Part shown: piece after piece, positions 26,595-48,083 of the stretch | How positions within the stretch are numbered: position 1 is the first letter of the stretch | How the letters are laid out: each line of letters opens with the position of its first letter | From: Gluconobacter albidus | GTDB lineage: Bacteria; Pseudomonadota; Alphaproteobacteria; Acetobacterales; Acetobacteraceae | Length of the DNA stretch: 64,000 nt | Assembly: GCF_002723915.1 (NCBI RefSeq) | Contig: NZ_BEWL01000001.1 | Location: forward strand, 372,001 to 436,000 | Reading direction: 5' to 3' | The notes under the pieces: generated by a model | The model's input: the letters and a program-made list of their open reading frames with translations, nothing else | Told to the model about the DNA's origin: nothing | The model's database searches: none | Program-made: the position numbers and the translations under genes

Positions 26595-28271
26595 ATGACA
26601 GTGATCCGGGCAGTCGAGATCGACCTGGTCGATACCCTGGCTGTCCAGGTCGATGACCTTCCGGCCCATGGCAGCCGGCCACGCGGAACGCTGCGGCGGA
26701 GTGCGGGGTCTCTGGAGACGATCGAGACCCTGCGCTTCTCCGATATGGGTTACGTCGATGAAAACCATGTTCCCTATGTCCCGATCGTCACCCAGGCGTT
26801 CGATCTGGACCGCGGCATTTCCCTGACCTCGGACGCCCTCGGGGGCACGTCGTCATTCGGCTCGGTCACGCTGATCAATGATGGCTCCCTCGACACGCTC
26901 GTGGCCAGCCGCACGAATGACCATCTGCCCATCCGGATCCTGAGCGGGCGTAAGATTTTCGACCGGGACCGGGGGATCTGGCAGGATCCGAAGCGCTCGG
27001 ATCTTCAGCCGGTCTTTGCGGGTCTGGGCACGCTCTGGCAGCCCGGACGTCGCACCCTGACCGTGCCCCTGCTCGGGGCGCTGTCCTGGCTCGATGTCAC
27101 CATGGCAGGTCGGATCTATGGAGGCACGGGCCGTCTGGACGGAGATGCCAACGTCTCCGGCCGCGTCATGCCGACCCTGCGGGGGACGGCGTGCAACATC
27201 ACACCCGTCCTGATTGATGCGGTCAATTACGTCTATCAGGTCAGCGATGCGCCGGCCGAGATTTCCGCGCTCTATGAGGGCGGCTTTGCGGGTGGCATCG
27301 CCTTCGGTGGTCTGGTCTCAGATCTCTATGCCCAGTCTCCTGCTCCTGGAACCTACCAGATCCAGAGAGGGGGAACCGGCACATGGATCCGGCTGGGAAC
27401 ACGTCCTGTCTATGGCATCACCGTGGACGCAGTCGGGTCGTTCCCCTCCGGAGCCGCGCCGCAGAACGTCCTGGACATCCTGCGCACGATGCTCCTGGAG
27501 GACTTCGTTCTTCCGGAATCCTACATCGACGTCCAGTGGCCAGCGCAGAGCCCGCTGGCCCCCTGGCGGGCAGGGTGGTTCTGGGATGGAACAGAAACGG
27601 TCACGGGACAGGACGTCGTCCGGACGCTGCTCTCGGGGCTGGCGCTTTCGATCGTGCCAACCCGGTCGGGCACGCTGCGGCCTGTCCTGCTGGAAGCGGT
27701 CGATGACCTGACCGCCTCGACCCTGACGCTGGATGCGACTGTCATCACCGACATCCAGTCCGTGTCTCTGGATGCCTCGCTCAATCCTCCGACATGGCGC
27801 TGGCGCATGGGGTGGCAGCATAATTTCACGGTCCAGACGGCCGGATCGGGTCTGCACCCGCAGGCCCCGGCCGACCGGCAGGCCCTGATCGCCGCAGCCG
27901 ATCGCAATGCCGTCTGGTCCGATGCGACCCTGCGGACGCGCTGGCGGGTTCCGAACGATCCGACGCCGGTCGTCACGGCCCTGGCATCCGCGGAAGACGC
28001 CCAGACCGTCGCAAATTCACATGGCCAGCTCTGGGGTGCCTATCGCACCCTCTGGGCCATCACCATTCCGGTGGAACTGAGCTGGCAGGTCGACCTTGGC
28101 GATACCGTCTTGATTCAGGCTCCCATTCCAGGGCTGTCCTATGCATGCCTGGGCGTGGTTGTCGCGGAGCATGTCCGGGGCGGCGATGCGACGGCAACCC
28201 TTCAGATCCTGACCCTGTGGACCGTCCCGCAAGACGTGGACGGCGGTGATTTCGGGCCAGATATTATGTGA
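26595..28271 (+). CDS. Distal tail/tail hub protein
   Basis: 558 residues, beta-rich, with a Trp-rich central region (WPAQSPLAPWRAGWFWDG) and a C-terminal beta domain. It lies directly after the tape measure, where the baseplate hub of siphoviruses is encoded. No specific domain recognised beyond position and composition. It begins one base after the tape-measure stop. Confidence 0.65.
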   Translation: MTVIRAVEIDLVDTLAVQVDDLPAHGSRPRGTLRRSAGSLETIETLRFSDMGYVDENHVPYVPIVTQAFDLDRGISLTSDALGGTSSFGSVTLINDGSLDTLVASRTNDHLPIRILSGRKIFDRDRGIWQDPKRSDLQPVFAGLGTLWQPGRRTLTVPLLGALSWLDVTMAGRIYGGTGRLDGDANVSGRVMPTLRGTACNITPVLIDAVNYVYQVSDAPAEISALYEGGFAGGIAFGGLVSDLYAQSPAPGTYQIQRGGTGTWIRLGTRPVYGITVDAVGSFPSGAAPQNVLDILRTMLLEDFVLPESYIDVQWPAQSPLAPWRAGWFWDGTETVTGQDVVRTLLSGLALSIVPTRSGTLRPVLLEAVDDLTASTLTLDATVITDIQSVSLDASLNPPTWRWRMGWQHNFTVQTAGSGLHPQAPADRQALIAAADRNAVWSDATLRTRWRVPNDPTPVVTALASAEDAQTVANSHGQLWGAYRTLWAITIPVELSWQVDLGDTVLIQAPIPGLSYACLGVVVAEHVRGGDATATLQILTLWTVPQDVDGGDFGPDIM

Positions 28272-28277
28272 GACTTC

Positions 28278-29033
28278 ATGGAAAACTGTGGACTTGGCTA
28301 TCAGAACGCCGTGCTCTCCGCTGTCCTGTCGACCGACAGCGCCGCCGCAACGCTGCCTGTCACGAACCTGACCTCCCCGCAGGGCAATCCGGCCTATGCC
28401 TGGCGGGCGGACGCCACGACAGCGACCCTGACGGTGGCGCTGTCGCAGCGCGGGGGCGTGCGGGTCGTCTCGGTGCATCGCACCAACCTGACGGCGCAGG
28501 CCAGCTGGCGGATCGTCGTCAGCAGCGCCGGCAACGTCCTGCATGATGCAACCCAGCCCATGGCGATCGTGGCGGGTCAGGCGGTCTGCGTTCTGCCGGC
28601 CGAGCTGCAATGTGACGTCGTGGCGATCACGATCGCGGATCCGGGCAATCCGGACGGGTATCTCTCGGTCCCGCTGGCCTATGTCGGGCCGCTCTGGCAG
28701 CCGGTCCGCAACTTCTCCACCGACAGCAGCTCGGGCTTCAATCTTGGCGTCGATGAAGTAACGGCGCTGTCTGGCGCGGAATTTCCGCAGATGCGCTGGA
28801 TCCAGCGAAAGGCCTCGATTGCGCATCAGTCCTATGGCGCGGCCGAGACCGCAACCTTGCGGGAGATCCAGCGGGTCGCGGCGGTCGGGGAGAATATTCT
28901 CTTCCTTCCGGATCCGGCGGCGGCCTCGCAGGAGGAGGCGATCTTCGGGCGTCTGAGCGGCGGCGACATCGGCAATCCTTACGGCCCCGCCGATCGGCGG
29001 AGCTGGACCTTCACCCAGACGGAGCGACTGTAA
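28278..29033 (+). CDS. Tail tip protein, 251 aa
   Basis: Beta-rich protein with repeated Ala/Val/Thr strands in the N-terminal half and a C-terminal RRSWTFTQTERL. Order suggests a hub-associated tail protein. It ends in a TAATG overlap with the fibre gene, so it is coupled to it. Family not recognised. Confidence 0.6.
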   Translation: MENCGLGYQNAVLSAVLSTDSAAATLPVTNLTSPQGNPAYAWRADATTATLTVALSQRGGVRVVSVHRTNLTAQASWRIVVSSAGNVLHDATQPMAIVAGQAVCVLPAELQCDVVAITIADPGNPDGYLSVPLAYVGPLWQPVRNFSTDSSSGFNLGVDEVTALSGAEFPQMRWIQRKASIAHQSYGAAETATLREIQRVAAVGENILFLPDPAAASQEEAIFGRLSGGDIGNPYGPADRRSWTFTQTERL

Positions 29034-30112
29034 TGACCATGCTGGCCAATTTTGTTCTGGAGACCGCCAGCAGTCCGGGCGTCGGGGACTTCGTGCTGAA
29101 CGGCGCGGTCGCGGATCGCAGGGCGTTCTCCCAGGCATTTCCAAACGGCGGCCGGGTCTTCTATTTCGCGGATGACGGGACGCAGGCGGAATGGGGCGTG
29201 GGGACGCTGACGATCGGCAATCCCTGCACGCTGGCCCGCAGCCGGGTGATCGGCAACACGCAGAACACCACGGACCTCCTCCGCTTCTCCGGAGGGGTGC
29301 AGGTCTATAACGAGATCCCGGCCGAGTTTCTGGTCCAGCTGGATGAGAACGGCGCGGCGAGCCTCAAATCGCTGACCGTGCTTTCTGAACTGCTGGTCCC
29401 GCAGGTTTCAGACTGGAGCAGTAATCAGGCTGTCGGAGCCGTGGATGCCAAAAACCAGTTCGTCAAACAGGGCTGGAATTTCGCCAATTTCGGCACGAAT
29501 CAGATTTATGCCGGCTGGCGCACGGATGGGTCAGGCCTTGGCCTTGCGGTGGACAAAACGGATCTCGGGAATGTGGCGTTCCAGTCCTGGGTTGGGCAGA
29601 ACTATGCAACCACGATTCAGCTCAATACAGCGATGTCATCCGCCAACTCTGCCCAGGGAACAGCAAACTCCGCGCTTGCAGCGGCAAATACTGCGAACGG
29701 CACCAAGCTCAATATTACCGATGGGACGGCGACCCGCCTGACGGTCCTTTATGGTGCCATGCGCGCTCAATACCAGGACGACGGGAATTTCGTTATCTAC
29801 TCCGGGACTGCGCCTGTGCTCAGTGTCAGCTCCCAGTCCATCAACTGGAACGGGCATGGCTTCGCCTTCACGGAAGACCTGCCCACGGATCCGGGGCAGA
29901 AAATCGTCATGGACGTCGCGACAAGCGTGTCCGCCGGTGGTCGCGTGACCTTCGCGGTGCCGTTTTCGGATACGCCGAAGGTCATGGCCCAGAATTTCGG
30001 GGATGGTGACGTGAACTGTCACGCCTATGCGCCGGACAAGAACGGCTTCTCGCTGCACATCAACAATGGCGGGACGACGGACATCACCTACATCGCCAAG
30101 GGTCCGAAGTAA
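29033..30112 (+). CDS. Tail fibre/receptor-binding protein
   Basis: 359 residues. Residues 1-110 form a conserved attachment domain (ANFVLETASSPGVGDFVLNG, GRVFYFADDGTQAEWGVGTL) known from many phage tail proteins; a helical Ala/Asn/Ser repeat (SSANSAQGTANSALAAANTA) is the shaft; the C-terminal 90 residues (GGRVTFAVPFSDTPKVMAQN, ending in TDITYIAKGPK) match gp53-like/H-type-lectin-like fibre tips. Probably binds the host surface. Confidence 0.8.
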   Translation: MTMLANFVLETASSPGVGDFVLNGAVADRRAFSQAFPNGGRVFYFADDGTQAEWGVGTLTIGNPCTLARSRVIGNTQNTTDLLRFSGGVQVYNEIPAEFLVQLDENGAASLKSLTVLSELLVPQVSDWSSNQAVGAVDAKNQFVKQGWNFANFGTNQIYAGWRTDGSGLGLAVDKTDLGNVAFQSWVGQNYATTIQLNTAMSSANSAQGTANSALAAANTANGTKLNITDGTATRLTVLYGAMRAQYQDDGNFVIYSGTAPVLSVSSQSINWNGHGFAFTEDLPTDPGQKIVMDVATSVSAGGRVTFAVPFSDTPKVMAQNFGDGDVNCHAYAPDKNGFSLHINNGGTTDITYIAKGPK

Positions 30113-30145
30113 CCAGCCGCCCTGCCGCTCCGCATTCTTCTGTCA

Positions 30146-30169
30146 GCCGCCTTCAAGGTGGCTTTTTTT
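30146..30169 (+). terminator. Intrinsic terminator after tail fibre
   Basis: GCCGCCTT-CA-AAGGTGGC-like hairpin (one G-U pair) followed by seven Ts ending 11 bases before the next ATG. Confidence 0.8.
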
Positions 30170-30180
30170 ATGGAAAAACG

Positions 30181-30510
30181 ATGCCTGTCTCTCAGACTCC
30201 CGAAGACATTTTCGCTAGCCTGCGGGCTGAAATCCGCACCCTTCAGGATCGTACGCTCAAGCTCGAAACCTATGCAGACGGACTGAACGACAAGCACGAC
30301 ACCCTGCGCAGTGAAGTCCGCACGGAGATTGCCTCTCTCCGCAACCAGATCGCCAGTCTGGAGACGAAAATGGAAACGGCGAACAAGCAGATCAACACGA
30401 AGCTGGACCGCCTGTTCGGTGCCCGCTCCGTCGTCACGGCCGCCATCACCCTGCTGACCTCAATCCTTGGATCGGGAGTCGTTCATCTGGTTGTATCGAT
30501 CGGGAAGTAA
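30181..30510 (+). CDS. Coiled-coil membrane protein, 109 aa
   Basis: Residues 10-75 form a coiled coil with heptad spacing (LRNQIASLETKMETANKQI) and the C-terminus is a membrane segment (VTAAITLLTSILGSGVVHLVVSI). Layout resembles small phage proteins near lysis genes (Bdr-like or holin-accessory) but a holin normally has more than one span. GGAA precedes ATG. Confidence 0.65.
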   Translation: MPVSQTPEDIFASLRAEIRTLQDRTLKLETYADGLNDKHDTLRSEVRTEIASLRNQIASLETKMETANKQINTKLDRLFGARSVVTAAITLLTSILGSGVVHLVVSIGK

Positions 30511-30779
30511 AATTGAAAACAGCAGAGCAAATAAAAGGATCAGTATTTAATTTTTTTTCAAAAAATATAAATTTACTAAGTAGTATTTCGCCTTCAATCT
30601 GATAATTTTCGTGTAAGCAAACATATATTTAGATATTATCATTCAAATATATAGGAACAACCAATAGACCATCGAAATCCTTGATTTAGTGCGGCAGAGA
30701 GGTGACTATAATTCATTTCGCCTTAGATGCCTGCTTTTCTATCATTGATAGAGCAGGAACGTTCAATCAGGATCCCCCC
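30511..30779 (+). other. AT-rich intergenic region upstream of AAA gene
   Basis: About 270 bases with a composition much lower in GC than the flanking phage genes. No gene is supported. A GTG at 30702 with GAGAG could open the AAA frame early. The region probably carries the promoter of the AAA gene. Confidence 0.5.
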
Positions 30780-32747
30780 ATGCGCATCTCGCTTTCCAAT
30801 AATTACAAATCAATTCCTGCTTTCGACAGTATTGAATTGCCTAATTTTACGGTAATTATTGGCTTGAACGGAACAGGAAAATCACAGCTATTAGAAGCAA
30901 TTAAATCCCGTAAAGTTGACTGTGATGCGCTTGCGCCTGAGATGTTAGGAAGACTATCTCAAGAAAATCCAAGCGCAGTTATACTTACGAATACGTCATT
31001 AAAACTTGACTCGGATTTATATATAGAAAAAAACATAGAAGACAACGGTCTTTTAAAGGATAATTTTGAGAAAAACCGAAACGAAGCAATAAAGAAAATA
31101 GATAATGATGTAAAAAATATATTCATTAATACAAAATATAGAGATTTGTCTACATTAGAAATTACAAAAAAGCCAATAGAAGAAATTATTCTAGCTTTAG
31201 GGGGTTCTGAAATTGATGAAATAATAAAAAATAATATTGAAACAATATTGTCTTCTTTTAATAGTTCCCTTTTTAGTCATAGCAATAAACTAGAATTAAG
31301 AAAAATTCAAAACCAAATACATAGAGTAACCAATAATTCTGGCATAGAAGCCAGGTTTTTGAGTTTTGATGATGTCATTGGATTTGGGTCTTGGGGAATA
31401 CAAAATATATTTCATTACAAACTTACAAAATTATTTTATGGATATCGTAATGAATATATTGAAAATATTAAAAAATCCCCTCAAGGAGGGCGTCCTGCTA
31501 GCAATGACTGGCTTACCGACAGTGAATTTCAAAATAAATTTGGAATTCCGCCATGGGAGCAGATATCCGCTAGCATGAAGCTGTTTGATCTCAATTACCG
31601 TTGTGCGCCGCCAGGCGTAAGAAAAATTGATCCAGTTGTTTTGTATTTCGAGCGCTTAGACGAAGAGGGCACGCATGTTGAATTCTCTTCACTTTCCGCG
31701 GGAGAGAAAGTGCTGGTCCTCCTATCTATTTCGATGCTTAATATTGATTCTTCCAGAGTTATTATTCAAAAGCCTCCATTGCTTTTACTAGATGAAATTG
31801 ATGCATCGCTACATCCCGCAGTTCTTCATCAGTGGATAAAGACGATACAAGACAAAGTTGTCGGGAAGATGGGGATTCCGTGTATTATGACGACACACTC
31901 TCCGGTAACTGTGGCTTTAGCACCGGAAGAAGCCTTATTTGAGATGCGTCGCGAAAATATTCCATTATCGAAGATCTCCACGCGCGAAGCGTTGAACAAA
32001 TTAACGGTCGGACTACCATCCATGGAGGTAGATTTTACGCAGCGTCGGCAAATTTTCGTCGAAGCTGACGTCGATGCCGAGGCTTATGATCGGCTCCACA
32101 CGCTTATGAAAGCTAAACTACAGCTTCGTCGATCCCTTAATTTTCTATCGACCGGAATTAAAAACAAACAAGGAATCGAGCAAGGCACTGGTTGCGCGGC
32201 TGTCGGAAAAGTCGTCAGCGGATTGGCTGACTTCGGCAGTCTTTCTACCTTCGGTTTACTTGATTGGGATGGGGATAGAACGCCCAGTGGCCGAATCCAC
32301 ATCTTAGCTCAAGGAACTCACTATGCATTTGACAATGTAATTTTACACCCATTACTGATTGGATTGCTGTTGATCCGAAATAGAAAACCTCCTTCTGAAA
32401 ACTTACCACCTTTCGTAGGTATTGATCGCCTTAAATCCACCCGTCTTCAAGAGATAGCGGACGCCGTCCAATCGAAACTTAAATACCCAGCCGGGGCTTC
32501 GGAGGAGAAAGTTCCGGTAAAGTTTGTTAATGATCTAATTATCATGACGGATGAGGCATTCTGTCAAAGCAACGGCCATAAGATGGAAGAAGCGCTCTCT
32601 ACAGCGTTTCCTTCGCTGAAACAATTTACTATGCAAAAGGGTAAGCTGGCACTTGCCGTAATCGACCAAGTCCTAGAAGATTGCCCTGACTTGTGCCCAA
32701 AACCACTGGCTGAGGCTTTCAGAACACTTTCCGAAGCAAATCCTTGA
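30780..32747 (+). CDS. AAA ATPase with TOPRIM/DUF4435-like C-terminus (candidate defence protein)
   Basis: 655 residues. The N-terminus is an ABC/SMC-like AAA_15/21 ATPase: Walker A GLNGTGKS (28-35), signature SLSAGEK (about 302-308), Walker B LLLLDEIDASLHP (about 333-345), and H-loop TTHSP (about 371). The C-terminal part has a TOPRIM-like acidic start (IFVEADVDAEAYDRL, about 422-436), a DxD-type GLLDWDGDR (about 490-498) and a hydrophobic HPLLIGLLLI, as in DUF4435 domains. This combination is seen in OLD nucleases and in PARIS (AriA ATPase plus AriB DUF4435), where fused versions are known. The first third is strongly AT-rich. ATG 30780 is chosen because MRISLSNNYKSI is the usual AAA_15 start. 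Role in anti-phage defence is inference. Confidence 0.8.
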   Translation: MRISLSNNYKSIPAFDSIELPNFTVIIGLNGTGKSQLLEAIKSRKVDCDALAPEMLGRLSQENPSAVILTNTSLKLDSDLYIEKNIEDNGLLKDNFEKNRNEAIKKIDNDVKNIFINTKYRDLSTLEITKKPIEEIILALGGSEIDEIIKNNIETILSSFNSSLFSHSNKLELRKIQNQIHRVTNNSGIEARFLSFDDVIGFGSWGIQNIFHYKLTKLFYGYRNEYIENIKKSPQGGRPASNDWLTDSEFQNKFGIPPWEQISASMKLFDLNYRCAPPGVRKIDPVVLYFERLDEEGTHVEFSSLSAGEKVLVLLSISMLNIDSSRVIIQKPPLLLLDEIDASLHPAVLHQWIKTIQDKVVGKMGIPCIMTTHSPVTVALAPEEALFEMRRENIPLSKISTREALNKLTVGLPSMEVDFTQRRQIFVEADVDAEAYDRLHTLMKAKLQLRRSLNFLSTGIKNKQGIEQGTGCAAVGKVVSGLADFGSLSTFGLLDWDGDRTPSGRIHILAQGTHYAFDNVILHPLLIGLLLIRNRKPPSENLPPFVGIDRLKSTRLQEIADAVQSKLKYPAGASEEKVPVKFVNDLIIMTDEAFCQSNGHKMEEALSTAFPSLKQFTMQKGKLALAVIDQVLEDCPDLCPKPLAEAFRTLSEANP

Positions 32748-32781
32748 ACTCGGACACTATTGACCCGGTCTCCCTACCCAA

Positions 32782-32807
32782 GCCGCCCTAACCGGGCGGC
32801 TTTTTTT
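32782..32807 (+). terminator. Intrinsic terminator
   Basis: GCCGCCC-TAACC-GGGCGGC and seven Ts, ending 13 bases before the endolysin ATG. Confidence 0.88.
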
Positions 32808-32820
32808 ATGGAAAATCCCC

Positions 32821-33324
32821 ATGCATGAAACCGCCATCACTCTGGCGACGGCGCTGCTGCGGCGGCCGGGGTTCGAGGGCTTTTGCGCATCGCCCTATGT
32901 CTGCCCGGCCGGGTACTGGACGATCGGGTATGGCAGCCGGTGGCTGGCCAACGGACAGCCCGTCACGGCCCGGACCGCTTCCATTGATGAGGCAGCCGCC
33001 AGCAGTCTCCTGCTCCGGACCGTGACAGCGCTGGATGCGGCGCTCTCCCGTCTGGTCCGGGTGGCGCTGTCGGACGTCCAGCGCGCGGCCCTGCTGTCCT
33101 GGCAGTACAATGTCGGGACACCCGCCGTCGAAAGCTCGACCCTGCTGCGCAAGCTGAATGCCGGAGATTATGCCGGCGCGGCTGACGAGCTGCTGCGCTG
33201 GGACAAGGCCACCATGCGCGGCCATCTGGTCGAGCTGGCTGGCCTGAAAAATCGCCGTGCCCGTGAGCGGGCGCTTTTTCTTGGCCCCGGCATGCCCCTG
33301 ACACTGAAGAATGGAAACGTCTGA
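32821..33324 (+). CDS. Endolysin, T4-type lysozyme (GH24)
   Basis: 167-residue peptidoglycan hydrolase. The catalytic Glu lies in PGFEGFCASPYVCP, then WTIGYGSRW with the conserved TIGYG, and a C-terminal helical half with LSWQYNVGTPAVESSTLLRKLN, typical for GH24. There is no signal peptide, so release depends on a holin. The neighbouring holin-like gene at 34927 fits. Terminator just upstream. Confidence 0.92.
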   Translation: MHETAITLATALLRRPGFEGFCASPYVCPAGYWTIGYGSRWLANGQPVTARTASIDEAAASSLLLRTVTALDAALSRLVRVALSDVQRAALLSWQYNVGTPAVESSTLLRKLNAGDYAGAADELLRWDKATMRGHLVELAGLKNRRARERALFLGPGMPLTLKNGNV

Positions 33325-35921: not shown

Positions 35922-36689
35922 ATGAGTGCACCTTTTGTCGGCGGACGCTGCCTGGGCAAGCGCGCCCCGAAACATGATTCGCGCACCTACCGCCTCGGCC
36001 GGGTGCTGGCCGTGCGCCTGCCGGCCGTGCCCGCCGCGCAGGACTGGTCGCAGAACGTGCCCTATCAGATGTGGGGCAATGACCGTTTCGGCTGCTGCGC
36101 TTTCGCCGCTCACGCCGCCCTGGTGGCGACCTGGACGAAGGCTGCGCAGAGCCTTGTGATGCTCTCGACCGAAACCGTGCTGGACAACTATGCGGCGCTG
36201 ACAGGCTTCGATCCGGCCACCGGGGCCAATGATGACGGCACCATCCTGCTGGACGAACTCAACGCCTGGCGCCGTGACGGCCTGCTCCGGCCGGGACAGA
36301 CGCGCGATTACCTGACCGCCTATGGCTCGATTGTGCCCACGGACGTCGTGGGCATCCGCCGTGCCATTGCCTATCTGGGCGGCGTGCTGGCCGGGGTGCA
36401 GGTGCCGCAAGGCTTCCTCGATCTGGGTCTCGGTGAAACCTGGGACTGGAATGCCATCTCCGACCATACGCCTGCCGGGGGCCATGCCATCGCGCTTGTC
36501 GGCTACAACCCGGACGGCGTGTTCTTCAACACCTGGGGCACGCGGACCTTCATGCCGTGGGGAACCTTCACGCGGATCGCGGATGAAGCCTATGGCCTGC
36601 TGTCGCGCGAGAACTGGCTGGGCATTCCCGGCACGGCTCCGACCGGTGAGGACTTCGACGCGCTCCTGGCGGAAGTGACGGCCGCATGA
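35922..36689 (+). CDS. Papain-like cysteine peptidase, 255 aa
   Basis: C1/C39-type fold is suggested by AAQDWSQNV (papain-like DW), the nucleophile region GNDRFGCCAFAAHAAL with Cys58/59, His in PAGGHAIALVGYNPDG, and Asn in FFNTWG, in the right order. No signal peptide. GGAG eight bases before ATG 35922. The stop overlaps the start of the collagen-like fibre gene, so it is coupled to a fibre and may process it, or act during lysis or on the host. The role is inferred; the catalytic triad is visible. Confidence 0.7.
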   Translation: MSAPFVGGRCLGKRAPKHDSRTYRLGRVLAVRLPAVPAAQDWSQNVPYQMWGNDRFGCCAFAAHAALVATWTKAAQSLVMLSTETVLDNYAALTGFDPATGANDDGTILLDELNAWRRDGLLRPGQTRDYLTAYGSIVPTDVVGIRRAIAYLGGVLAGVQVPQGFLDLGLGETWDWNAISDHTPAGGHAIALVGYNPDGVFFNTWGTRTFMPWGTFTRIADEAYGLLSRENWLGIPGTAPTGEDFDALLAEVTAA

Positions 36690-38128
36690 CCACGGTTCAC
36701 AATCTCACGCCGTCTCCGCTGCGGACGGTGACGCTCCAGTCCTGCACCGAGCTGTTTGCCCAGGTGATGTGGACACCAAAGGCCTCGGCCGACTGTCTGG
36801 ACTATGTTCTGGACTTCTCCACCCTGCTGGCTGGCACGGGCGACACGCTGACCGCAATCCGCTCCGCCGTCGTCACGACAGCTACAGGCGGGGAGTATGA
36901 CCTCAAAGTCATGTGGTCGGCCGTGGCCGGACCTCTGGTCGTGGCCTTCCTTGCCAGCGGGCAGCCGAACACGGCGCAGAAGATCCTCTTTGAGATCACG
37001 ACCGCTCAGGGCCGCGTCTATTCCGTGATGGCTGTGCTTCAGATCACGCCGCTGACGGCGGCAACGGCCCCGCCCGGTGATTTCCCGGCCGATACTCTGA
37101 CGAACGGCAAGGTGCTGATTGCCGGCATCGAGGCGCTCCCTTCGGGATATTCGTCGAACGGCCGCGTGGTTATGGCGACGGAAGACGCGGCTCCTGTGGG
37201 CACGCCGTCCTTTGAGAGCGTGACGGCCGGGACCTATGCGGGCGATGGCTCCGGGCTGGAGGTCACGTCCGACGGCAAGGCCCAGACCATCGGCCAGTGG
37301 ATTGCGGCCCTGTCTTCGGGCGGGACTCAGGGCGTCGGGATCAAGGCGATCAACCTGACGCAGGATCCTGTCGTCGCGGGCCAGCCGTCGACCGTGACGC
37401 TGACGGCCACGCTCACGGACGGCACGACAACCGCCCCTGCCACCTTTGAGCTTCCAGCCGGCGCTGCAGGAGCAGCCGGTGTGCCTGGCCCACAGGGCAT
37501 CAAGGGCGATACAGGGGCGAGCGGGGCAACCGGGCCAGCTGGTGCACCGGGGTCCGATGCGAATGTCACGGCGGCCAATATCAAGACGGCGCTTGGATAC
37601 GCCCCGGCAGCCACGGTGCCGCAATGCACGGCTGCTGAACTGCCGAAGCGCGGCACGGTCGGGGACGCCGTCTTCTGCACGGATGCGACCAGTGGTCTTC
37701 AGGGCCAGACATTCCCGGCGGAGGGATGCTATCTCTTCTGGAACGGGGCTGCATGGGTCGATTACATGGGGTTCGCCTACACCACGGGGAATTTCCCAGG
37801 CGGTACGGCCCATATCACTGCCCAGAAAATCACGGCGTCGTACGAAGCTGACATCGCAGCTGGATACGTCTACGGGTATTTTGCTTTCCAGAGCGATGCA
37901 GTTCTGGACATGCAGAATAAGACAACGATCACCAGCAGCACCGGCAACACGCTCGCGGCCATCAAAGCCAACGCCAGTACATCCCAGAATGTCGCCAGTG
38001 CGATGGCCTGGGCGAAAGATGCCCGGGGCCCAGGCGAAGCGGCGGGCGCGGGTACCGGGCGCTGGATCTATAAAAACACTGCGGGCGTATGGTGCGATTT
38101 CGCGACCGGGACGGAGGCTCTGGCATGA
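36686..38128 (+). CDS. Fibre-like protein with collagen repeat, 480 aa
   Basis: N-terminal beta domain (about 1-120), a linker domain with TAGTYAGDGSGLEVTSDGK, a short collagen-like stretch of Gly-X-Y triplets at about 258-292 (GVPGPQGIKGDTGASGATGP), a small carbohydrate-binding-like region (TFPAEGCYLFWNGAAWVDYM) and a C-terminal domain. Collagen triplets trimerise phage fibres. Probably a second tail or surface fibre. Overlaps genes on both sides by four bases. Confidence 0.75.
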   Translation: MTTVHNLTPSPLRTVTLQSCTELFAQVMWTPKASADCLDYVLDFSTLLAGTGDTLTAIRSAVVTTATGGEYDLKVMWSAVAGPLVVAFLASGQPNTAQKILFEITTAQGRVYSVMAVLQITPLTAATAPPGDFPADTLTNGKVLIAGIEALPSGYSSNGRVVMATEDAAPVGTPSFESVTAGTYAGDGSGLEVTSDGKAQTIGQWIAALSSGGTQGVGIKAINLTQDPVVAGQPSTVTLTATLTDGTTTAPATFELPAGAAGAAGVPGPQGIKGDTGASGATGPAGAPGSDANVTAANIKTALGYAPAATVPQCTAAELPKRGTVGDAVFCTDATSGLQGQTFPAEGCYLFWNGAAWVDYMGFAYTTGNFPGGTAHITAQKITASYEADIAAGYVYGYFAFQSDAVLDMQNKTTITSSTGNTLAAIKANASTSQNVASAMAWAKDARGPGEAAGAGTGRWIYKNTAGVWCDFATGTEALA

Positions 38129-38730: not shown

Positions 38731-39006
38731 CCTCTCCCACCTTACGAGAGCAAATTTAGGTTTGACACTAGGACGATTCGGCCCTTGATATTCCGTTAGA
38801 GAAATTTGCAGGTTTTACCATATAAGACATTGTTTTATATGGTTTTATCTAGTTGCGTCAGGTCCACCAAATTCCTCAGACTTCAAGAAATTCAGATGCT
38901 TTTGGCTGATCTCATTGCCTGCGGGAGTCAGAACATTCTGTTCGTGACAACGGTGTAATCCGCTCTGGTATCCAGACCCAGAGCGTGAGCTACATCAGGA
39001 CGACAT
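38731..39006. other. Prophage right-end region
   Basis: AT-rich gap of 276 bases with no supported gene, containing a hairpin at 38817-38843. The prophage right attachment site should lie in or near here, but the matching left site is outside the window, so it cannot be placed. AGGTTTGACA at 38758-38767 also occurs at 4-13 near the integrase end. Confidence 0.45.
38817..38843. terminator. Hairpin with T-tract at the prophage end
   Basis: ACCATATAA (38817-38825) pairs with TTATATGGT (38835-38843) and is followed by TTTA on the plus strand. Weak AT-rich stem; may end the prophage late transcript. Confidence 0.45.
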
Positions 39007-40014
39007 TCAGATGAAAAATCGTGTTGTTTTCAGGTAGTTCATTAGCCTCCGACGTCGCAGGATAACGCGCCAAGGCGTCAGAATACGGGTCAGGAGCCAC
39101 ATTCTGTTCGCATGGCGGTCTATCCTGCTCAGACCGGCTTGTCCTGATGAATGGAAATACTGTTTGAGCGAATAAAAAGCCTCAAGTTGTGGGAACTGCT
39201 TCAGAAGCTCGACATAAGATGCAATAAAGCGCCCCTGCCACGGCCGTGCTTTTGAGAACCATGGTTTTTCAGCGCCCGTGAAATGAATGATCGACGGCCG
39301 CACAGTGTTCACGAAATTATTTTCGGCGAACATGGTCGTGAAATTGTATTTGGGTGACATAGGCAGTCTTCTGCCGACACACACGGCGTTTAGAGCGCTC
39401 TGATCGTGGAACATGCAGTCTTTGGAGTGATTGACGAAATAATCAAATCCTTCTTTGCAGAGATTGATCCATGTCTCACGCTTTGCAGCCAGAATTCCTG
39501 CATTGAAATAATCCGACTCATGCGAAACCCCGAGTTTTTTGAGGTATTCGCGCGTTTTTTCTCCGGATTTGTCATGTTCTTTTGCTTTAAGAAAATGTCG
39601 ATCAATAGCACCCAACATTTTGCCATCCGGAATGTCGGCATTCGCCAGATCGAAAATTGACCCGACGACCTGAACGTCCCCGTCAATATACAGGATGTTC
39701 TCATATTTCGGATCTATACACGGACCTGTGAAAAAACGTCCCAAAGTTGAAATCGAAATATGTGTTTCTCTGAACGAAAGAGATTCCTGTTCGCTCAATA
39801 CTTTATCAAGATCAAGCTTGATGGTCGTAATGCCGTGATCTGTGACGAGATCCGTGATCGTACGGAAATCTTCATCATTAAGATCCGTTGTGAACAAGAA
39901 GAGATCCGCGACACTCATCGTATCTTTCTGTCGGCTGATCTGCAGCATCGCGAGGATGCTTGGTACCAGGAAATTCCTATCCGCGACAAAGATAATTGCA
40001 GTTTTATGTCCCAA
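39007..40014 (-). CDS. Family 8 glycosyltransferase
   Basis: 335-residue retaining sugar transferase of the LgtC/GT8 type. Features: N-terminal IIFVADRNFLVPS, the metal-binding DxD in ILYIDGDVQVVGSI at about 112-120, NAGILAAKRETW, and IIHFTGAEKPWF near residue 245. The start is TTG 40014, preceded by AAGG. GC content is clearly lower than in the genes to the right. Such enzymes usually modify lipopolysaccharide or exopolysaccharide; next to a prophage end this could be lysogenic conversion or a chromosomal island gene. Confidence 0.85.
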   Translation of the reverse strand: MGHKTAIIFVADRNFLVPSILAMLQISRQKDTMSVADLFLFTTDLNDEDFRTITDLVTDHGITTIKLDLDKVLSEQESLSFRETHISISTLGRFFTGPCIDPKYENILYIDGDVQVVGSIFDLANADIPDGKMLGAIDRHFLKAKEHDKSGEKTREYLKKLGVSHESDYFNAGILAAKRETWINLCKEGFDYFVNHSKDCMFHDQSALNAVCVGRRLPMSPKYNFTTMFAENNFVNTVRPSIIHFTGAEKPWFSKARPWQGRFIASYVELLKQFPQLEAFYSLKQYFHSSGQAGLSRIDRHANRMWLLTRILTPWRVILRRRRLMNYLKTTRFFI

Positions 40015-45689: not shown

Positions 45690-48083
45690 ATGCCGCGCAA
45701 CCTGCTGCGTTCCCGCCTGCTCCTGACTGTTTTCTGCTCGCCATTTGCGCTGGCTGCCGCTCTTCCCCACCCCGCCAGTGCCGCTGCGACTGGAACGAAA
45801 AAAGCCACACCGGCCAAACATGCTGCCAAAAACGACGCCAAACACAAGGCTAGGGTGGATGCCGTGGCCGGGGGGACGGAACAGCTTGTCATCACGGCAC
45901 GGCGCACACGTTCCGAACAGGGGCTGAGCCATGTGCAGATCCAGCGGATCCTTCCGGGCGTGAACCCGGTCAAGGCGCTGGAAATGCTGCCGGGCGTCGT
46001 GTTCAACAACGCCGATCCCTGGGGTAACAACGAGCAGAACTCCTCGCTTTATGTTCACGGGTTCAACCAGAACCAGCTCGGCTACACGCTCGACGGCATT
46101 CCGCTCGGCGATCAGGCTTACGGCAACTACAACGGCCTCTCTCCGCAGCGCGCAGCCATCAGCGAGAACATCGGATCGGCTTCGGTTTCGTCCGGTGCAG
46201 GTGCGCTTGGCACAGCCTCCACGTCCAACCTTGGCGGAACGCTCCAGTTCACCACGCAGGACCCGCTGAAGAAGCGCGGCGCGCAGATCGAGCAGGTTTT
46301 CGGAAGCTGGTCTACGTTCCGCACCTTCGCCCGCCTCGATACGGGTGAGTTCGGCAATGGCAACTCAGCCTATGTTTCTTTCGCACGTCAGGACGCACGC
46401 GCCTGGGACTTCGCCGGCCATCAGGGCGGCTATCAGGTCAACGCGAAGTTCGTCCACAACAGCGAACATGACCATTTCTCGACGTTCTTCGACTGGTCCC
46501 AGAAGGTCGAGCCCAACGAAGACAGCGTTACGCTGCCGCAGGGTTATGGCATTTATGTTCGCCCGTTCACCTATCCCAATTTCAATTACGCCAAGGCCAA
46601 CGCCAATGCGGTCGGCCTGAACTATCGCAATTATTACTCTGCGGCCCAGCGCGAGGACTTCCTCGCCTATTCCAAGTGGACGCATGATTTCAGCGAAAAC
46701 CTGCACTGGGACAACAGCATCTATTATCACCATGATCTGGGTGAAGGTGTTGTAGCCGGTCCGATTTCGGCCGCCGGCCTGCCGACGCTGTTCGCCGCCT
46801 ATTTCCCGGGTCAGGATCTGAACACCGTCTTCGGCGGTTCGGGCTATGCAACCCGCACGACCGAATACTGGGACAACCGCGGTGGCCTGATGTCCACGCT
46901 GCGCTACCATCTCGGCAAGCACTCGATCGAGCTTGGCGGCTGGTATGAGCGCAACAACAACACCCAGGCCCGTCGCTGGTATCCGCTGAACGCCAACAAC
47001 CCGACCACGCCTTACGAGCGCCAGCAGAACGCCCTGATCGACCAGTACACCAACAATTTCTACACCAACACGTTCGTCACGCATCTGCAGGACAACTGGC
47101 AGATCTCCAAGAATTTCTCGCTGATGGCGGGCTTCAAGTCCGAACTGGTCTATACCAACGGCACGCTTCCGGTGGCCGCAAAGCCGGGTTCGCTTTCCCC
47201 GTCCTATGCCGTGACGGCACCGGGTGGCGAAATCGACGCCGCCAAGCCGTTCCTGCCCGCTTTCGGCGCAGTCTGGGATATCACGAAGCACGAGCAGTGG
47301 TTTGCCAACATCCAGGAGAACATGCGCTCCTTCCAGGATGCGGGCTATGGCAACGCCACCCCGTGGGGCGCGACCAGCCAGGCCGCTTTCGAAGAGTTCA
47401 AGAAGAACGGCAAGCCCGAAACCTCATGGACCTACGAAACCGGTCTGCGTGAGCACCGCCAGATCCATCTCGGCCCGCTGACGGCGATCGAAGGTCAGGT
47501 CGAATACTATCACGTTCACTTCTCAAACCGCCTGCTGGCCGTCGCAACGACGCAGACCCTGTCGTCCATCATCGGCTCGGCCACCACGCTTGCGAACGTG
47601 GGTTCGGTTACGACGGATGGTATGGATTTCTCCTTCACCACCCATTTCGGTCCGCATTTCTCGCTGTACAACGCGCTGTCCTACAACAAGTCCACCTACA
47701 ACGATAACTACAGCACGGGTTCGAGCATCATCCACACGGCAGGTAAGGACGTTGTGGGCATGCCGGACTGGTCGGAGAAGTTCGTCTTCACCACCAACTG
47801 GGGCAATGCCTACGGCCAGTTCACCGGTGATGTCATCGGCAAGCGTTATGCGACCTACACCAACGACATGTGGGCTGCACCCTACGCCCAGTTCAACTTG
47901 AACGCAGGTTATACGTTCCACAATATTCCGCATCTGGCGTCGCTGAAGGTTCAGGGCAATATTACCAACCTGACAAACACGAAGGGATGGTCCACGATCA
48001 ATGCCACCCAGACTGCGGGTCAGTTCTCGGCCTTTCCCATCGCGCCGCGCATGTTCTTCCTGAGCCTGAGCGCCGCCCTGTAA
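45690..48083 (+). CDS. TonB-dependent outer membrane receptor
   Basis: 797 residues. A Sec signal peptide (about 1-33), then a short basic linker and a TonB-box-like EQLVITARR, plug domain (VNPVKALEMLPGVVFNNADP, YVHGFNQNQLGYTLDGIPLG) and a beta-barrel ending in MFFLSLSAAL. It is followed after 13 bases by a glycerophosphodiesterase and preceded by a Pho-box-like site, so the substrate may be a phosphorylated compound rather than a siderophore. That substrate is inference. Confidence 0.93.
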   Translation: MPRNLLRSRLLLTVFCSPFALAAALPHPASAAATGTKKATPAKHAAKNDAKHKARVDAVAGGTEQLVITARRTRSEQGLSHVQIQRILPGVNPVKALEMLPGVVFNNADPWGNNEQNSSLYVHGFNQNQLGYTLDGIPLGDQAYGNYNGLSPQRAAISENIGSASVSSGAGALGTASTSNLGGTLQFTTQDPLKKRGAQIEQVFGSWSTFRTFARLDTGEFGNGNSAYVSFARQDARAWDFAGHQGGYQVNAKFVHNSEHDHFSTFFDWSQKVEPNEDSVTLPQGYGIYVRPFTYPNFNYAKANANAVGLNYRNYYSAAQREDFLAYSKWTHDFSENLHWDNSIYYHHDLGEGVVAGPISAAGLPTLFAAYFPGQDLNTVFGGSGYATRTTEYWDNRGGLMSTLRYHLGKHSIELGGWYERNNNTQARRWYPLNANNPTTPYERQQNALIDQYTNNFYTNTFVTHLQDNWQISKNFSLMAGFKSELVYTNGTLPVAAKPGSLSPSYAVTAPGGEIDAAKPFLPAFGAVWDITKHEQWFANIQENMRSFQDAGYGNATPWGATSQAAFEEFKKNGKPETSWTYETGLREHRQIHLGPLTAIEGQVEYYHVHFSNRLLAVATTQTLSSIIGSATTLANVGSVTTDGMDFSFTTHFGPHFSLYNALSYNKSTYNDNYSTGSSIIHTAGKDVVGMPDWSEKFVFTTNWGNAYGQFTGDVIGKRYATYTNDMWAAPYAQFNLNAGYTFHNIPHLASLKVQGNITNLTNTKGWSTINATQTAGQFSAFPIAPRMFFLSLSAAL

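Follow-up and report, generated by a model that had tools for sequence, protein, structure and literature searches.

A single-chain ABC ATPase–TOPRIM gene in the cargo slot of a Gluconobacter prophage, with an AriB-like C-terminal domain

A prophage of Gluconobacter albidus carries, between two conserved phage genes, a single gene whose product joins a complete ABC ATPase to a TOPRIM domain, and the nearest characterised relative of this domain is taken to be AriB of the PARIS system. The gene is found in a stretch of 64,000 nucleotides of contig NZ_BEWL01000001.1 (positions 372,001 to 436,000), referred to here as the window, and all coordinates below are counted from its first base (Table 1). 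Defence by single-chain ATPase-TOPRIM proteins is already known, as are fused forms of PARIS. However, among the matches listed in a search of the open-access literature, no title or abstract describes a branch that combines this ATPase with an AriB-like TOPRIM. Since the gene occupies a cargo slot, and since a sensor ATPase is joined in it to an AriB-like domain that probably cuts RNA or DNA, the protein probably serves as a weapon against competing viruses, and we lean, by a little, toward a prophage-carried, one-gene abortive-infection system that would act like AriA and AriB of PARIS, but in a single chain.

Table 1. Features of the gene, its protein and its slot (positions in the window)
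Feature	Position	Strand	Evidence
109-aa gene, left edge of cargo slot	30181..30510	+	protein homologue in nine of the 11 sister loci
Single-chain ABC ATPase-TOPRIM gene	30780..32747	+	655 aa, GC 0.40; intact open frame and Pfam
Walker A, GLNGTGKS, residues 28-35 (K34)	30861..30884	+	G28, N30, G31, G33, K34 in 55 of 56 aligned, 1 gap
Fast-evolving, mostly helical insert, residues 61-205	30960..31394	+	column conservation and model
ABC signature, LSAGEK, residues 305-310	31692..31709	+	S306, G308, E309 in 56 of 56
Walker B / D-loop, LLLLDEIDASLHP, residues 334-346	31779..31817	+	D338, E339, D341, L344, H345, P346 in 56 of 56
Switch histidine H373 (TTHSP)	31896..31898	+	56 of 56
AriB-like TOPRIM domain, about residues 420-655	32037..32744	+	structure model and hhalign
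TOPRIM acidic motif, E-A-D-V-D (E428, D432)	32061..32075	+	E428 in 56 of 56
TOPRIM D-W-D motif (D495, D497)	32262..32270	+	both D in 56 of 56
DN...HP, residues 518-524	32331..32351	+	relatives have EN...DP
Intrinsic-terminator-like hairpin behind cargo	32780..32802	+	sequence scan
Endolysin, right edge of cargo slot	32821..33324	+	phrog_7 endolysin, E 4.4e-44

An Intact Gene of Foreign Composition

The reading frame is uninterrupted over its 655 codons, compared with a longest stop-free run of 200 codons in shuffles of the gene (n = 1000) and of 348 codons in shuffles of the window (n = 200). The ATG at 30780 supplies the methionine present in every row of the first family alignment, which has five rows, and an in-frame GTG is found upstream of it, at 30702. 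The foreign composition pointed out in an earlier note on this DNA, made from the sequence alone, is borne out: GC is 0.40 and GC3 0.35, versus 0.56-0.67 and 0.62-0.83, respectively, in the eight other genes measured, with the part coding for residues 61-245 going down to a GC of 0.28.

The window contains a tailed-phage prophage, with the genes for the terminase large subunit, the portal, the head protease and the major head protein all upstream of the gene in question. An ORF of 1682 aa, which has no PHROG match, is read as the tape measure from its length and place, and three more genes separate it from the slot, two matching PHROGs of unknown function and one matching none. The earlier note had placed the gene between a tail fibre and an endolysin; the endolysin stands, but the tail fibre is not confirmed, as the gene at 29033-30112, which precedes the 109-aa gene, has no PHROG match, and the collagen-like tail-fibre matches sit at 36686-38128 instead. 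The 109-aa gene itself presents weak coiled-coil matches, below the cut-off. In a check against named phages, the terminase matches 811 and the endolysin 1713 phage records, every one at less than 60% identity, and no plasmid record is matched by the stretch 26595-30510. A scan with a simple sigma-70-like consensus finds no promoter in 30510-30780, so that expression in the lysogen stays a presumption; in 30400-33000 there are five promoter-like sites versus 5.2 expected. A search for border repeats, each border being searched by itself, gives one 10-base direct repeat (30585, 30715), within the left stretch, and none in the right stretch.

A Cargo Slot Beside the Endolysin Gene

With the stretch to the right of the gene as a query, related DNA is found in 23 of the 26 genomes of the genus, the own genome counted. 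Sister loci in which the match covers at least 450 bases around the endolysin gene were fetched, 11 in all, the window's own locus being extra, and in nine of these both flanking genes, the homologue of the 109-aa gene and the endolysin, are kept. Seven of the loci (L160, L161, L163, L164, L166, L168, L170) have 478-2357 bases of other DNA in the slot, the window having 2310, and in two (L165, L169) the slot is empty, with 6 bases separating the flanking genes. The other two are L162, in whose fetched stretch the left gene is missing, and L167, which stops at a contig end. Compared at the DNA level (blastn, E 1e-3), the seven cargoes are related neither to one another nor to that of the window. 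The gene is thus a prophage cargo gene (a 'moron', the position proposed for it in the earlier note), lying between conserved phage genes, replaced or absent in relatives, and of foreign composition.

On the left, DNA homology ends at 30508-30511 in six of the nine loci and at 30503 and 30520 in two (L164, L170), and in L165 it is lost before the 109-aa gene. On the right, it begins at 32769-32793 in eight of the 11 sister loci and at 32820-32821 in the other three. The terminator-like hairpin behind the cargo falls within the right homology of L160, L161, L162, L163, L166, and L168, and partly within that of L164 and L167, while it is outside that of L170 and of the two loci with the empty slot. 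The closest case is L160, from the same genome, with 91% identity up to 30508 and 92% from 32772.

This locus (G000:C12:33500-43500) belongs to a second prophage, whose slot holds a sodium/proton exchanger gene that runs against the direction of the late genes. Overall, eight cargo ORFs, picked as the longest, include the exchanger, one with a weak likeness to GhoS, below the cut-off (93 aa, in L164), and six without a Pfam match. The cargo ORFs of L161, L163, L164, L166, L168, and L170 range from 90 to 358 aa, those of L161, L163, L164, and L170 run opposite to the late genes, and four of these six cargoes have a GC of 0.31-0.37. The slot beside the endolysin in prophages of this genus is a place to seek unfamiliar cargo, much of it AT-rich.

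The Family and Its Distribution

In an initial tblastn search, four relatives on plasmids were found, with identities of 30-35%; for one of them, L005, the match covers only 37% of the query. A profile of five rows (the window protein, three plasmid relatives and one genome relative) finds 117 relatives, 80 of them retained, in the contigs of 84,980 genomes. In IMG/VR it finds 21 related stretches, where a scan with the single sequence gave nine pattern matches, none of them a relative. Against 50,697 named phage records, tblastn gave no match, either for the protein or for two of its relatives. As three of the IMG/VR loci (L096, L100, L103) have the same scores as the genome loci L028, L040, and L036, and seem to represent the same genes, the genome and IMG/VR collections are not independent. 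Closer to the window, the gene is rare: it occurs in three of 385 genomes of the class (the own genome counted, and one of the three occurrences being partial) and in three of 249 genomes of the taxonomic family, where it is full-length in the own genome only.

Conservation was scored in an alignment of 56 rows. Besides the window protein and L056 (125 bits), these represent 54 loci, taken from the 69 in which the best frame reaches at least 140 bits. The 15 loci omitted (L014, L030, L033, L035, L041-L045, L049, L058, L096, L100, L103, L104) are fragments, near-copies and a few outliers, and a count such as 56 of 56 therefore holds for the aligned rows.

No fixed partner gene is apparent: among 122 of the 167 neighbour proteins of the relatives, no Pfam family occurs in more than three by raw counts, and in the list of 25 families, out of 99, DNA methylases, TIR proteins and integrases are each represented one to three times per family. 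Three of the eight IMG/VR loci whose neighbours were tested have an integrase or tail gene. The comparison with PHROGs took in 10 genes close to the relatives, from eight viral contigs, and gave an integrase (L088), a tail fibre (L089), a tail protein (L091) and, in L103, a kinase and an acetyltransferase, the remaining five proteins giving no match. Two plasmid settings may be mentioned. In a Caballeronia plasmid (NZ_AP024328.1; L005, 2685-14741) a distant relative of the ATPase is flanked by two large TIR-domain proteins, with an integrase near. In a Croceicoccus plasmid (NZ_CP019604.1; L002, 1983-9344) the relative sits behind the S and R genes of a type I restriction system, where a guard against anti-restriction proteins would be well placed.

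The ATPase Half

The ATPase half scores above the Pfam cut-offs for both AAA_15 (53.5 bits, cut-off 32.1) and AAA_21 (49.9 bits, cut-off 27), and the Walker A, signature, Walker B and H-loop motifs are all conserved in the family (Table 1), in agreement with the earlier reading of a complete ABC ATPase with K34 as the Walker A lysine. The least conserved part of the protein is the insert of residues 61-205, in which 10 of 145 columns have a majority of 50% or more, versus 63 of 110 in residues 301-410, and which we consider a candidate sensor surface for recognition of a trigger.

In comparisons of the whole protein, the best single PADLOC match is ATPase-Toprim_I-B, at 68.1 bits, chiefly over the ATPase part, and the PADLOC AriAB model matches in two pieces (21.2 and 18.7 bits), both within the ATPase. 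A search of PDB sequences with the single protein returns six weak rows, and the five-row profile returns ATPase matches only (retron and Septu PtuA-type to 1.6e-9, AriA at 0.0045). Likewise, whole-chain structure searches match almost exclusively ATPases (SMC heads, PtuA, RecN, and AriA, 8v46_B, at Z 12.7).

The C-Terminal Domain

As the whole-chain searches probed almost only the ATPase, the C-terminus was modelled by itself, by AlphaFold, from residues 410-655 and an input alignment of relatives, giving a pLDDT of 94.3 and a pTM of 0.91. In VIA-align this model matches best the AriB chains of PARIS, 8ux9_A at Z 11.1 (196 residues aligned, 4.5 A) and 8v46_D at Z 10.7 (188 residues), followed by C-terminal domains of OLD proteins at Z 8.0-6.6, the third match overall being the TOPRIM of a class 2 OLD protein (6nk8_A, Z 8.0), and by retron Eco2 at 6.4 and GajA at 6.3. 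The AriB matches are realignments of the 1000 best candidate chains of Foldseek, which in plain use has no match for the C-terminus at E 0.001 or below, its top rows being unrelated enzymes. That the C-terminus is a TOPRIM domain we regard as established; the structure search, set in the earlier note as a test that could refute the proposal, places it within TOPRIM, and the fusion of an ATPase to a TOPRIM proposed there is supported. The C-terminal profile was also run against PDB sequences, and the designed knot proteins that it matched, exclusively and on a helical stretch, are read as chance.

Profile evidence for this half comes from the family. The profile search suggested in the earlier note finds AAA_15 and AAA_21, as above, but not DUF4435 (PF14491), residues 420-655 of the window protein matching no Pfam family at E 1. 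Ten of the 56 aligned members match DUF4435 at E 0.01, and none is over the cut-off of 27 bits, the best (L107) reaching 26.7 bits (E 5.7e-6). The PADLOC AriB model matches four of ten family C-termini, those of L039 (6e-11), L107 (1.3e-8, positions 4-227 of 236), L003 (3.8e-8) and L094 (5.8e-4), and, weakly, that of L017 (0.023). The other five have no AriB match at E 0.5: L095 matches AriAB (4.5e-4) and retron type I-B (0.007) and nothing else, and L009, L036, L093 and the window protein have no match to any PADLOC model, the C-terminus of the latter being compared with all families at E 0.5. In hhalign, the C-terminal profile of the family pairs with four fused AAA-DUF4435 proteins at 93.8% (E 1.8e-7) and with five stand-alone DUF4435 proteins at 75.9%, VES..D falling on VEG..D, GLIDWD on GLIDRD, and EN on EN. 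PADLOC, hhalign and VIA-align agree in placing the C-terminus closer to AriB and DUF4435 than to OLD or GajA, as had been surmised.

The acidic residues of the second active site, like the motifs of the first, are conserved in the family (Table 1), with position 432 being D in 54 and E in two of the 56 aligned. The window copy departs from the consensus at three otherwise conserved TOPRIM positions. One is 429, within the VEA..D of V427-D432, which the earlier note had proposed as the mark of a new branch: S is present in 54 of 56, H in one, and A solely in the window copy, and VEA is therefore a deviation of this copy within a VES family. The others are 518 (E in 54 of 56, D in the window copy) and 523 (D in 51 of 56, H in the window copy).

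An ATPase Shared by Proteins with Different C-Termini

The ATPase of the family is not restricted to AriB-like C-termini. The same scans recovered two unnamed protein groups, A7 (EGITD type) and A8 (WDCD type), whose ATPase halves are very close in profile to that of the window family (hhalign E 1.3e-81 and 2.2e-85, respectively), whereas the ATPase of 'fused AriAB' (our label for proteins with a DUF4435 match and an ATPase, recognised by its motifs, in one chain) is distant, at 3.4e-13. Members of the two groups (L052, L070, L045, and L059, for example), several of them from candidate-phylum genomes, differ in their C-termini, which the TOPRIM profile of the window family does not match (1.0% for A7, 0.5% for A8) and which, from their E-G and D-x-D motifs alone, may be read as TOPRIM-like.

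A maximum-likelihood tree of ATPase halves was built from 81 of the 82 rows gathered (L007, in which the motif used for cutting was not found, was dropped); its group labels derive from motifs, and its rows comprise neither stand-alone AriA nor class 1 OLD sequences. The four fused AriAB proteins form a clade of their own with support of 100/99, and branches of 2.81 and 2.86 flank the midpoint root, so the tree is to be read with a warning of long branches and with weak forks. A7 and A8 are interleaved, each with six label changes versus one needed, of which well-supported branches force three each, and two proteins with the AriB-like effector (L047, L048) group with two A7 types at 100/99. 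With the ATPase common to proteins with two other TOPRIM-like C-termini, and with the groups mixed in the tree, an exchange of effectors around one sensor ATPase is suggested.

A broader interpretation, which we hold tentatively and with somewhat less than even confidence, is of a modular family of phage sensors, in which one conserved ATPase chassis, different from the one in fused PARIS, bears interchangeable TOPRIM effectors. The window protein would then belong to a new class, additional to the five classes of OLD that have names. The effector types would be the AriB-like 'VES/DWD' of the window protein, 'EGITD/FDFD' and 'EG-NT/WDCD'; the trigger would be set by the helical insert and the mode of killing by the effector swapped in; and the 'VES' type, found in at least Pseudomonadota, Cyanobacteriota, Bacteroidota, and Verrucomicrobiota, would be loaded into prophage cargo slots. 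If the same ATPase is indeed joined to different effectors, as it seems to be, trigger and effector should be separable by domain swaps.

Relation to the Known Systems

PARIS is described as a two-gene cassette that also occurs as single-gene fusions, and the source gives rules for its detection: AAA_15 or AAA_21 over the cut-off, DUF4435 over 27 bits, and fusion profiles of AAA plus DUF4435 at 80 and 20 bits (PMC9122126). The window protein is over the limit for the ATPase part (53.5 and 49.9 bits) and has no match at E 1 for the DUF4435 part. It resembles PARIS in having an ABC ATPase with a TOPRIM effector whose best structural match is AriB, and in the order of motifs, VE(G/S)..D, G-I/L-I-D-x-D and EN, shared with fused AAA-DUF4435 proteins. 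It differs in that its ATPase is on a branch separate from that of fused AriAB (100/99), in exceeding the four fused proteins (A5) by some 100 residues, and in having VES/VEA in place of VEG. Given that every aligned member stays below the DUF4435 cut-off, and given the wide distance between its ATPase and that of fused AriAB, we do not file the protein as PARIS.

In the wider sense the protein belongs with the OLD superfamily, having a complete ABC ATPase followed by a TOPRIM with E and D-x-D. Class 1 OLD proteins, such as P2 Old, which is prophage-carried, and the T. scotoductus OLD (6p74), likewise have the ATPase and then the TOPRIM in one chain from one gene (PMC10568477), and no fixed partner gene is seen among the 122 neighbour proteins mentioned above; however, AriB matches the TOPRIM model more closely than any of the listed OLD domains does, and 6p74 is a weak whole-chain match in Foldseek (TMq 0.19). 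GajA of Gabija (OLD class 2) shares the chain of ATPase and TOPRIM and has an anti-phage role, but the C-terminus is only at Z 6.3 to it, and general PHROGs and Pfam scans give no helicase match for the endolysin and the near neighbours, the partner of GajA in Gabija being the UvrD-like helicase GajB. A survey counts at least 11 uncharacterised OLD clades, one of which was then characterised (PMC12796447), and the window family may be among them.

Proposed Function and Alternatives

In PARIS, the TOPRIM tRNase is held in check by the ATPase and becomes active once a phage protein binds (PMC12409363). By analogy, the ABC ATPase half and its fast-evolving helical insert would keep the TOPRIM half inactive until it binds some protein or structure that a superinfecting phage produces; binding, together with ATP, would rearrange the oligomer and bring the TOPRIM domains together; nucleic acid would next be cut at the metal site formed by E428, D495, and D497, with host tRNA, which AriB cuts, as the likeliest target, and translation would stop before the rival phage finishes its cycle. 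The trigger, the oligomer, the tRNA as substrate and the defence itself are all what we infer from the comparison with PARIS.

The main competitor to such an abortive-infection system, which we consider rather unlikely, is a single-gene DNA nuclease of the OLD type, like P2 Old or like GajA acting without its helicase, that would nick or degrade the DNA of the rival phage or kill the cell when host DNA repair is attacked. The layout is that of class 1 OLD, the TOPRIM of a class 2 OLD is third among the structural matches, and the substrate is not revealed by the sequence; against this, AriB is about 3 Z units higher and covers 196 versus 163 residues, and the profile evidence favours DUF4435. 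Loss of function in a decayed or catalytically weakened cargo gene is improbable: A429 for S, D518 for E and H523 for D at conserved TOPRIM positions and the negative promoter scan of 30510-30780 would agree with it, but the frame is full-length, the ATPase motifs, E428, D495, and D497 are intact, and D518 is still acidic.

Slightly less probable again is a role outside defence, in regulation of the cell cycle or of phage development, for which there is a precedent in the archaeal Cran1, an OLD-family protein without an apparent antiviral role (PMC12796447); the gene of the window is co-directional with the late genes, but the patchy spread, the occurrence on plasmids and in viral contigs, and the unrelated DNA, or nothing, in the same place of sister prophages speak against it. 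As to retrons, the effectors of type I-B (Eco8 type) are ATPase-TOPRIM proteins, and theirs is the top PADLOC model by whole-protein score, chiefly, as stated, through the ATPase. Reverse transcriptase (PF00078) has no match in the whole genome of the window, nor in the 13 IMG/VR records tested, and it is present somewhere in four of 10 other genomes tested, at whatever distance from the gene. Because the genome has no reverse transcriptase, identity as a retron effector, to which we give next to no credence, is rejected for the window gene. The one-gene abortive-infection system thus remains the preferred reading, and single-chain ATPase-TOPRIM proteins represent a large and mostly untried part of phage immunity.

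Other Genes in the Window

Two genes away from the slot deserve a brief mention. The gene at 39007-40014 (minus strand), without a PHROG match and by eye a glycosyltransferase, is found in an AT-rich stretch (39001-40000, GC 0.46) downstream of the late genes of the prophage and on the opposite strand. For the gene at 45690-48083, outside the phage genes, the nearest relative is a TonB-receptor gene on Acetobacter pasteurianus plasmids (73%).
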